A stretch of DNA of 64,000 nt from Phycisphaerae bacterium (lineage in GTDB: Bacteria > Planctomycetota > Phycisphaerae > Phycisphaerales > UBA1924). The notes below the pieces were generated by a model that was not told where the DNA came from, did no database searches, and saw only the letters and a program-made list of their open reading frames with translations. Each line of letters opens with the position of its first letter. The stretch's first letter is position 1. Of the stretch, positions 30,057 through 38,808 are shown in pieces. The translations under genes were made by a program, and so were the position numbers. The stretch spans positions 124,001 through 188,000 of the forward strand of contig JAEUIZ010000056.1 of NCBI GenBank assembly GCA_016793805.1, given 5' to 3'.

Positions 30057-30758
30057 TCAGGTACACCCCGCCGAGAACTGGTTCAGGAAGCACACAAAGT
30101 CGTTGACGTTCAGCACCGGCGCCGCCGCCGAGCAGTCGCAGTTCGCCGACGGGTCGCCCACCGAGAACTTGTTGAGGAAGCACACGAAGTCGTTGACGTT
30201 CAGCACCGGGGGCGACGTGCTCGCGTCGCAGTTCGCCGGGCACAGCACCACCCGCGTGATCACCGCCGAGCCCGTCGTGATCCGAAGGCTCCCCACCAGC
30301 GCCGAGGGCGTGAGCACCACGTTCGTCAGGCTGAACGTCGCGAAGTTCCCCGCGTCGATCCCCGTCACCAGGTTTGCCGCGAAGTTCACCGTGATCCCCA
30401 GCAGCACCTGCGAGCCCGCCAGCGCCTCGTTCGCCAGCGTCACCGGGTGCGTCCCGGGGCAGTTCTCGGCCGTGCCGTTGAGGAACGCCGACGACCCCGG
30501 CTGCAGCGTCTCAAAGATCTGCGCCAGCGGCGTGGGCGTCGGGAACAGCGCCCCGAGGATCACCCCGCTCCCCACCGCGTTCCCCGTGATCGCGTACGTG
30601 TACCGATACGCCGGCGAGATCGGGTTCGGCGAACTCGATCGCATCTGCGCCAGCCCGTTCTGCAGCCGAACGTCCGTCAGGTCGATCGTCACCGACTGCT
30701 GCGCGAGCGCGCTCGAAGTCACCGCCAACACCGCCGCCAGGGTCGCACGATTTCGCAT
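30057..30758 (-). CDS. exported protein with dockerin-like tail
   Basis: A 233-residue exported protein: signal peptide (MRNRATLAAVLAVTSSALAQ), a beta-rich domain of about 140 residues with no recognised family (VTIDLTDVRLQNGLAQMRSS... LLGITVNFAANLVTGIDAGNF), then two dockerin-like repeats (NCDAST...LNVNDFVCFLNKFSVGD and NCDCSA...LNVNDFVCFLNQFSAGCT). The LNVNDFVCFLN core occurs twice almost unchanged. GGAGG precedes the ATG. It lies between the exporter operon and a PEP-CTERM gene, both on the same strand, with its own promoter-like element. Confidence 0.85.
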   Translation of the reverse strand: MRNRATLAAVLAVTSSALAQQSVTIDLTDVRLQNGLAQMRSSSPNPISPAYRYTYAITGNAVGSGVILGALFPTPTPLAQIFETLQPGSSAFLNGTAENCPGTHPVTLANEALAGSQVLLGITVNFAANLVTGIDAGNFATFSLTNVVLTPSALVGSLRITTGSAVITRVVLCPANCDASTSPPVLNVNDFVCFLNKFSVGDPSANCDCSAAAPVLNVNDFVCFLNQFSAGCT

Positions 30759-30776
30759 GGCGCTACCTCCGCCAGC

Positions 30777-30782
30777 AGCATA
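30777..30782 (-). promoter_or_regulatory. extended -10 element
   Basis: GCGTGG-TATGCT on the minus strand, the same extended -10 as at the two pseudopilin genes, but with a 19-base distance to the ATG that holds a GGAGG site. No clear -35. Confidence 0.4.
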
Positions 30783-30909
30783 CCACGCCCCGCAAGCCCC
30801 CGGCCATGAACCGATCACCCCCGGCCCGCCGATCCCGCCACGCCATGAGCGGATCGCGCGGGCGACGCGTCCTCATGCCGGACCGTCGATGCTGCTATGG
30901 CCTGCCGAT

Positions 30910-31640: not shown

Positions 31641-32957
31641 TCAGGGCGCGTGGGACCACACGGCGACTGAGACCGCATCGATCTCTGCCGTCGAGGAGGC
31701 ACCGGGGTGAGTCTTCTCGAACGCGATCGCGACAAAGAACGAACGGTCATTAAACATGGCTGGGGTAAACTGATTCTGGGCGCCAGGCGGTTCGAGTGGC
31801 CAGGTATCTTCGCAGTGCCCAATCGTGTGGTCGACAAACCCAGTTGTCGGTTCGACAAACGGATACTTGCCCCGGCCCACCTGGGCGTTGCTGGCCCACG
31901 GCGAAACGTAGTGCCACCTCTGGCATGCTCCGGTGACCTTGGCGACAATCGTGACTTCGACGCCGTCGATGACGTGATCAGATGGAATGGTGGGAAGCGG
32001 GAAGTTCGAGCAGAAGAGATAGGTCGTCGTGCCCGAGGTGGACACGCCGATCGCGCCGTGCCCATCGGGTGCGTCCGCCGCATCCATGGCGTTCGTCCAT
32101 GTGTTCGATGCCGCGCTTCCGGCCCACACAGGGCCGCCGGTCGGCGAGTCGCAACTGATCACGTCGAAGTACACCGTGACCGCGACAGAATCAACCATGA
32201 CCACCGCGCCATCATCCGAGCCGACCGTGTCGTTGTCATAGCCGAGCAGCACGCCAAAGTTCGCGGCCTTGTATAGATTGGCCGTCGGGAACGGAGTGTT
32301 CCAGACGTCCGTGGAACTTCCATATGATGCAGTCGCGAGCGCCGTGCCGACATAGGCTCCCGTCGCCTTGTTCTGGGCGAAGCCTACGAAGTGCTCCTTT
32401 ACCATCGTCACGGCCGATTCCTTGATCGTCGCTCCGGCGCTCGCAAACCGACGGATGTCGATCACAACGCCGCGAATGATCGCGTCATCTGGAAGTCCGC
32501 TGAAGCCAAAGCCGCCGCGCGAAGGTACTCGGTCTTGCTCTCGCCGCCCATGTACACTGACGCGCACTGATGGTTGGGGGTGTACACGTTCGCGGGGTCG
32601 GACCACTTCAGCGTCCCCCCGGGTCGTGGATACCCGCCGTCGGATGACGTGGGGCTGCCGGTGACGCAGTCGGAACTGCGACCAGTGTTGGCTGCTGCAA
32701 ACCCGCCTTCGACGCTGCTCGCACTCGCCGTCACCGACCGCATCGGCGGGCGGAACGCCGTCGGTCGGATCGCTGCGCCCGCTCCCCCCTTTGGCCGCCA
32801 GATCGAGCCGTGGATCGGCGAACTCGCAGCCATGGGCGGAACTCCGGGCACTGTTGGGGGCATCCTGATCAAGGCCAGCGCCGCCGCGAGCGCCACCAGT
32901 CCGACAAGACTACCCGACCCCCCCCCCTAACGACGCGAAAGCACGCAGAAGACGCAT
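31641..32957 (-). pseudogene. exported two-domain protein, frame-broken at a G10 tract
   Basis: The ATG at 32957, with AAGGGGA upstream, reads MRLLRAFASLGGG into a run of ten G and then stops (GTC GGG TAG). With nine G the frame would continue SGSLVGLVALAAALALI, a good signal peptide, into the next open segment (down to about 32520). A second break at a GC-rich spot near 32511-32522 leads from SKTEYLR to GGFGFSGLPDDAIIRGVV. The product would hold two copies of a beta-domain beginning IP/LPDDAIIRG / IPSDHVIDGVEVTI and ending in VDSVAVTVYF / IDAVSVAVWS. I know this domain from phage-like and metagenomic exported proteins. Promoter, start and both domains are preserved, so the loss, if real, is recent. 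Confidence 0.72.
32918..32927. repeat. C10 / G10 homopolymer in signal-peptide codons
   Basis: Ten consecutive C on the plus strand, G on the coding strand, eleven codons into the gene at 31641-32957. Lengths of nine or twelve would join the start codon to the signal-peptide frame. Its placement parallels that of the (CT)11 tract in the RCC1 gene. Confidence 0.9.
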
Positions 32958-32995
32958 GGCGATCCCCTTGCAGCGGCCGACGACCGGCCACTTGC

Positions 32996-33023
32996 AATGT
33001 ACCACAAGCCTCCGGCTTGTCAA
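32996..33023 (-). promoter_or_regulatory. sigma70-like promoter of the G10 gene
   Basis: Minus strand: perfect TTGACA, a 16-base spacer ending in CTTGTGG, then TACATT, with about 38 bases to the ATG. The GTGG before the -10 repeats the pattern of the pseudopilin promoters. Confidence 0.6.
33004..33020. repeat. inverted repeat overlapping the promoter
   Basis: Perfect seven-base arms (acaagcc / ggcttgt) with a three-base centre occupy the spacer and the edge of the -35. This is a typical operator position for a dimeric repressor, though the same sequence could fold as a small hairpin. Confidence 0.45.
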
Positions 33024-37866: not shown

Positions 37867-38808
37867 ATGCGGCTCATCGCCCACGCCAAGATCAACCTCG
37901 CGCTGGCCGTCGGGCCGCCGATCCCCGCGGGCCAGCCCCATGCCGGGTTCCATCCCATCGCGTCGATCATGCACGCGATCGACCTGGCAGGGACGGTCGA
38001 GATCGTGCGCACGGGCGCGCCCTCCGGGGCCAGCGAGCACCGGGTCGAGTGGTCGCCGGACGCGCCGCGACCCTCGCCGATCGACTGGCCGATGGAGAAG
38101 GACCTGGTCGTGCGCGCGCATCGGGCGCTTGAAACGCGCGTTCAGCGCGCGCTCCCGGCGCGGGTGCGCGTCGCCAAGCGTGTGCCGGTGGGCGCGGGGC
38201 TGGGCGGGGGGTCGTCGGAGGCCGCGGCGGCGCTGGCGGGGCTGGATCAGGAGTTCGATCTGCGGCTGGGGCACGCGGCGCTGGCCGAGGTCGCGCGCAC
38301 GATCGGGTCCGACGTGGCGTTCTTTCTGGACGACGGCGACGGGGGAGGTGGGGGGGGGGTGCCCAGACCGGCGCTGGTGACGGGCGCGGCGGACACGATC
38401 GTTCGCCTCCCGAGGCGGGCGGGTTGGCTGGTGCTGGCGCTCCCGGCGTTCGGGTGTCCGACGGGAGAGGTGTACCGCGCGTTCGACGCCACGCGACCCG
38501 GGCCGATCCGGGAGGACGCGGTTCGAGCGCTGGCGGCGGACCGATCCTGGCCGCCGGGTGGAATCGGGGGCGCGGCGGGGGGCGGAGGGTTGTTCAACGA
38601 TCTGACGTCGGCGGCGGAGGCGGTGCGTCCGGCGCTGGGGTCGCTGCGGCGGGGGCTCGAGTCCGCGTGCGGGCGGACGTGGCACATGAGCGGGAGCGGG
38701 AGCACGCTGTTCCTGCCGGTGGCGACCTCGGCCGAGGCGCACGCGATCGCTTCGAAGATGCGTCGGGATCGGCCCGATGCAGAGTACGTGCCCGCGCGGC
38801 TCGTGTAA
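37867..38808 (+). CDS. ispE: 4-diphosphocytidyl-2-C-methyl-D-erythritol kinase
   Basis: GHMP kinase of the MEP isoprenoid pathway, phosphorylating CDP-methylerythritol. AHAKINLAL holds the catalytic Lys8, VPVGAGLGGGSSEAAAAL (about residues 107-122) is the ATP loop, and GSDVAFFL carries the catalytic Asp149. WHMSGSGSTLFLP is the third GHMP motif. A glycine/aspartate stretch (DGDGGGGGG) directly after the Asp motif is an insertion encoded by G5 and G10 runs, not part of the usual enzyme, yet the frame is intact. No other MEP gene is near. Confidence 0.92.
   Translation: MRLIAHAKINLALAVGPPIPAGQPHAGFHPIASIMHAIDLAGTVEIVRTGAPSGASEHRVEWSPDAPRPSPIDWPMEKDLVVRAHRALETRVQRALPARVRVAKRVPVGAGLGGGSSEAAAALAGLDQEFDLRLGHAALAEVARTIGSDVAFFLDDGDGGGGGGVPRPALVTGAADTIVRLPRRAGWLVLALPAFGCPTGEVYRAFDATRPGPIREDAVRALAADRSWPPGGIGGAAGGGGLFNDLTSAAEAVRPALGSLRRGLESACGRTWHMSGSGSTLFLPVATSAEAHAIASKMRRDRPDAEYVPARLV

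Follow-up and report, generated by a model that had tools for sequence, protein, structure and literature searches.

The window is a 64,000-nucleotide stretch of one contig (JAEUIZ010000056.1, positions 124,001 to 188,000) from the genome of a Phycisphaerae bacterium. On its minus strand lies a gene, A1 below, for a predicted exported protein. The promoter has a −35 hexamer TTGACA (33018–33023) and a −10 hexamer TACATT (32996–33001), with a 16 nt spacer between them. AAGGGG precedes the start codon ATG (32955–32957), where an n-region reading MRLLRAFASL begins. There then follow a TTA codon (32928–32930) and directly behind it a run of ten G’s (32918–32927).

This run is one base over the length that fits the downstream frame. 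In the assembled allele the ATG frame reads MRLLRAFASLGGGVG and ends at a TAG (32910–32912, minus strand) immediately 3’ of the run, in the context GTC GGG TAG. With G9 in place of G10, the frame continues as ...LGGGSGSLVGLVALAAALALIR..., which joins the hydrophobic stretch and makes a plausible signal peptide. Signal peptides were scored by eye and with a hydropathy score. A preliminary description of this DNA had listed the TTGACA promoter, a ribosome binding site, the ATG, a hydrophobic core and a G10 off by one, and all of these are indeed there.

It had also held that only the G10 breaks the frame, which is wrong. Aligned to three paralogues (L083, L084 and L085), A1 is short of one more base near 32517–32518 (minus strand), some 400 nt 3’ of the run. 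The first part of the exported protein, comprising the hydrophobic core, a linker and the start of a domain, lies at 32462–32917 and ends past this second lesion. The remainder, at 31641–32517, is in another frame, and is 45–57% identical to five other loci of the same genome. The protein parts at 32462–32896 and 31641–32606 are in different frames. The suggestion that G9 would work therefore holds for the signal peptide, but G9 by itself is insufficient for a full-length protein. A1 could be a silent or decaying copy, unless the assembled sequence has an error here.

The protein has no profile match in Pfam or NCBIfam, no match among PDB sequences and no relative on viral contigs. AlphaFold on the single window sequence gave a pLDDT of 33, too low for use.

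An inverted repeat, CAAGCCGGAGGCTTG (33005–33019), begins in the −35 box and extends into the promoter spacer, just 3’ of a co-directional clpC gene. Another co-directional neighbour (30057–30818) has a GC-type dockerin domain (NF041540).

Paralogues in the same genome

A search of the organism’s own genome (G000; 3.6 Mb in 59 contigs) revealed five more loci for this protein, which together with A1 are here called family A. All six carry GTTA-G(n)-TCGGGTAGTC at the same place, even though their proteins agree at only about half of the positions. Spelled out, the motif is GTTA-G(n)-[T/AT]CGGGTAGTC, with n equal to 10, 10, 11, 11 and 10 (plus A), and GGGGC plus 9 in the last case. The TTA codon of the window gene is part of it. 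Comparable TTGACA promoters precede A2, A4, A5 and A6, and A4 and A6 are without an ATG. A seventh locus, A7 (C5:50981), is a remnant with G15, and is in frame.

Across 400 genomes of the order, and with slightly stricter flanks across 84,980 named species, the family-A motif occurs only in the own genome. The preliminary description had proposed looking for relatives that are in frame. No intact in-frame family-A copy was found, but in-frame cases do exist: families H and D1 and the A7 remnant in the own genome, plus a homologue in another metagenome-assembled genome (MAG), described below.

Between some paralogues (L078 and L079; L081, L082, L083 and L084) the promoter and signal-peptide modules are identical or nearly so, and the 3’ parts are divergent. 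By their sequences, this suggests gene conversion or module exchange. Such a shared stretch is also where contigs C5, C6, C39 and C40 break.

G-runs across the genome

The census of such tracts is near-complete, being built from an initial list of 100 places to which stretches around tracts were added. The pattern TTAG8+ occurs 12 times in the own genome, and the reversed pattern, which serves as a control, zero times. All 12 are at the 5’ end of exported-protein genes, roughly 27–51 bases past the start codon. In A4, A6 and family E the start is lost or ambiguous, and there the pattern is still at the matching place. GTTAG9 is found 11 times here, versus 0 or 1 times in each of 120 relatives. 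TTA is a rare codon, accounting for 8 of 66,491 background codons.

Adding runs behind TTC and TTT brings the set to around 20 signal-peptide runs, G8 to G15, in at least 8 protein families. Several of these are RCC1 beta-propellers. Besides A, the families are B (RCC1; G8, G10 and G11), C1–C5 (RCC1 in C1 and C3), D, E, F (RCC1), G and H. TTA, TTC or TTT precedes 19 of the 107 G9+ tracts that were examined, and after ten GGGTA follows within three bases.

The run separates the hydrophobic core, on its 5’ side, from the cleavage site, on its 3’ side, in families B, C, F and G. Run lengths differ within families. B2 and B3 for example share 90 identical upstream bases, yet have G11 and G8; B1 has G10. 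Since G11 and G8 are three bases apart, B2 and B3 are in the same frame. In the RCC1-type genes C1–C4, run plus spacer is constant at 12 nt, as either G10CC or G11C.

The preliminary description had argued that a second, unrelated gene with a slippable tract at the same place relative to its signal peptide makes chance or simple decay less attractive. The census, which extends well beyond what the window alone could show, bears this out. Rather than one broken gene, the pattern points to an on/off or frame-correcting switch that serves surface and secreted proteins throughout the genome.

Relaxed selection, under which dying paralogues would have accumulated expanded runs, is an improbable explanation. 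The second lesion in A1, the missing ATG’s of A4 and A6 and the A7 remnant speak for it. Most copies however retain open frames of roughly 300–600 codons, and where paralogues were compared the changes are mostly in the third position, so the reading frames are constrained. Also against decay are flanks and +1-frame stops that recur independently, and the like arrangement in other genera.

Frame offsets

Offsets were set by comparing the frame of the start codon with the frame that stays open 3’ of the run, except for A4 and A6, where alignment to other copies was used. D2, D3 and E2 were excluded from the counts, as they have further frameshifts or garbled contig ends. The 20 signal-peptide loci of the own genome divide into 3 at offset 0, 11 at +1 and 6 at +2, which taken alone is no significant departure from an even split (p = 0.09).

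G-runs in the middle of genes behave differently. Of these, 10 out of 14 are in frame, versus 3 out of 20 in signal peptides (p = 0.0014); the mid-gene count is made up of 9 in frame among 13 that a simple composition rule selected, plus ispE, and some of those out of frame may in fact mark the boundary of a gene. The ispE-like kinase gene lies in the window itself, and its G10 (38350–38359) is in frame, which makes it an internal control for homopolymer accuracy.

This difference argues against a general homopolymer error. Sequencing or assembly error is accordingly very unlikely as the explanation, all the more since MAGs from different projects agree on +1, one of them from a project with both Nanopore and Illumina sequencing. 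What speaks for it is that contigs C8, C13, C33 and C59 end at some of the tracts in G-rich garbage, and this means that individual run lengths may be wrong.

The contig ends at or near G-runs are those at L092 (start of C8), L093 (start of C13, with G67), L090 (C33) and L188 (start of C59). A single family-E gene may be split between C8 and C59.

In about 12 of 13 families, the +1-offset frame meets a stop 0 to 4 codons past the run. The stop can be TAG, TGA or TAA, and its position differs. As background, a +1-frame stop is that near in 2.6% of positions, or 5.3% near the start of a gene (143 genes); a p-value for this enrichment is indicative only, because the families are partly non-independent. 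The +2 frame is mostly open over many codons. Going by the sequences, convergent stops behind the runs would be hard to explain without selection.

Related genera

In the sister genus g7, GTTC-G9 is enriched, with several of the matches located mid-gene. Several TT(C/T)-G9 matches in relatives were considered as signal-peptide runs, and rejected as ordinary mid-gene sequence.

In g7 and g15, the genes for FG-GAP propellers have runs of G9 or G10, all at +1. A TAG comes directly behind nearly all of them: in most g7 copies, and in every g15 copy. A scan of named genomes added PNC22, a single-contig g15 genome from the Nanopore and Illumina study, and MAG-57 (+1). In total, 12 of 13 FG-GAP loci are at +1 and one is at 0 (p = 1.7e-5), where loci are treated as independent of kinship and where one g7 locus, L240, is weakly placed, as it matches BNR and not FG-GAP. 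The homologue in S141 is in frame, with one G fewer. Total length is held constant through substitutions, such as G10-T versus G9-TT. Pooled over all genera, offsets 0, +1 and +2 are found 5, 25 and 9 times (p = 0.0002, again treating loci as independent of kinship). That the off-by-one recurs at homologous loci in MAGs of different projects, including the single-contig genome, also means that it is not a single assembly error.

A few bases past the TAG, the FG-GAP loci of g7 have a GTG. This could be a second start, in which case the short frame would be a leader peptide, with the G-run acting as ribosome-binding site for re-initiation. The likelihood of this is slight. With the core on one side of the run and the cleavage site on the other in families B, C, F and G, a whole signal peptide arises only from a fused product.

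The same data also fit programmed +1 recoding. Here the run would be one base over by design, and a ribosome or RNA polymerase would slip by one before the stop, so that a fraction of translation would yield the exported protein. In this it would resemble prfB, the gene for release factor 2, with a G-rich, Shine-Dalgarno-like stretch and an in-frame stop. In its favour are the FG-GAP loci, with +1 in 12 of 13 across several genera, TAG behind the run and a length kept constant by substitution. The 12 nt of run plus spacer in C1–C4 similarly fit, as does the closeness of the stop to the shift site, which is typical of recoding. In family A, a +1 slip at GGG-U in GTC GGG TAG would yield the exported frame.

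Several things do not agree with recoding. The own genome shows both +1 (11) and +2 (6), the stop lies anywhere from 0 to 4 codons past the run, there is no prfB-like CTTT slip site, and downstream structure is not generally conserved. A downstream RNA hairpin, looked for as a general stimulator, is clear at two G378 loci only. As the explanation for the window’s run, recoding is a tentative second. A rule of thumb holds that a single shift direction indicates ribosomal slippage and two directions transcriptional slippage (PMC3711429). Both directions are seen in the own genome, and one in the FG-GAP genes.

Proposed mechanism

The run is most likely a frame gate. The main reading is that the window’s G10 belongs with poly-G frame gates that sit in signal-peptide codons across the genome and are switched by replication slippage, and to this we give a probability of about 0.5.

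Under this main reading, translation from the ATG through the run would hit a stop a few codons on in the assembled allele, and no secreted protein would be made. Slipped-strand mispairing during replication would alter the run by one base, or by the right multiple. With the altered run, the n-region would be read in the same frame as the hydrophobic core and the cleavage site, and export would follow. A population would then contain ON cells alongside OFF cells with respect to each of around 20 surface or secreted proteins. We infer from sequence the change of length within a living population, its switching of export, and the roles of the proteins.

For the own genome, replication slippage, that is phase variation, fits best. 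It is supported by B2 and B3, with G11 and G8 behind 90 identical upstream bases, by the mixed offsets, and by the hypermutability of runs of G9 and longer. Against it, random switching does not predict the bias to +1 (5, 25 and 9 overall; 12 of 13 in FG-GAP), and ordinary phase variation does not require conserved flanks. B2 and B3 are in the same frame, and A1 has its second lesion. The interpretation given in the preliminary description is partly supported. The offset is biased to +1, and this suits programmed recoding no less than ON/OFF switching.

For the sister genera, programmed +1 recoding fits at least as well as phase variation, and the two can coexist. It is conceivable, if doubtful, that a lineage of Phycisphaerae-like planctomycetes has TT(A/C)-G(9-11)-NNGGGTA plus a +1-frame stop as a conserved module, which gates the signal peptides of many secreted beta-propeller-like proteins by a programmed +1 shift. 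The homopolymer would in that case control export in translation or through RNA-polymerase slippage, with phase variation by replication slippage on top.

Known systems

The best-known examples of poly-G contingency genes are those of pathogens and commensals that live with a host. In Neisseria pilC the poly-G tract is in the coding region, reportedly in the signal peptide. The Neisseria phasome as a whole resembles what is found here: G9+ in exported-protein genes, frequent off-frame alleles, and some repeat tracts in promoters. It differs in phylum and in protein families, which here are RCC1, FG-GAP and unassigned proteins, and also in that the present runs have conserved flanks (GTTA/GTTC-G(n)-NNGGGTA), a strong +1 bias and a stop behind the run; these data consist of assembled sequences only.

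In Neisseria, at least nine G’s is the working threshold for phase variability, and there are some 15–20 poly-G tracts per genome (PMC5953494). In sequence, the present runs look like such genes. The G10 is a homopolymer of at least nine G/C in a coding region, and it has roughly 20 sister loci. The length also alters the frame, as G10 leads to the stop and G9 joins the signal peptide, though in A1 the full length is blocked by the second lesion as well.

The runs are possibly prfB-like too. As in prfB (PMC12421855), there is a G-rich stretch, an in-frame stop and a coding frame at +1, so that a +1 shift is needed for the full product. Unlike in prfB, the CTTT that comes three bases after an AGGGGG-like stretch is absent, pre-stop codons (GGG, TAT, AAG, CGT and others) and spacing vary, and the proteins are exported ones and not release factor 2. 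The stop here is often TAG, with which prfB has never been observed (PMC12421855), although this is not decisive.

Homopolymeric tracts near gene starts have been described as a general prokaryotic switch for reversible inactivation (PMC2831843). That work stresses poly-A and poly-T, where here it is poly-G, concentrated in the signal peptides of exported genes. No paper linking phase variation to Phycisphaerae was found in the open-access literature. Some 20 such genes in an environmental planctomycete would extend the contingency idea to pressures from phages, predators or substrates. If the constant +1 in the sister genera is recoding, this would be a new use of G-runs, and a testable system for translational or transcriptional slippage.

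G-runs in promoters

One further tract of the own genome is not in a signal peptide. At L146 (G000:C29:60096), a G11 sits between TTGACA and TAATCT, 5’ of an exported-protein gene. Similar promoter tracts are present in a few relatives: G003 (L117), G004 (L114), G042 (L128) and G205 (L254 and L255). Poly-G in a promoter spacer resembles transcriptional phase variation in its classic form. Flanks such as GTTCG9TAGGGTATTT are common to promoter runs (L114, L117, L254) and signal-peptide runs (L280, L286).
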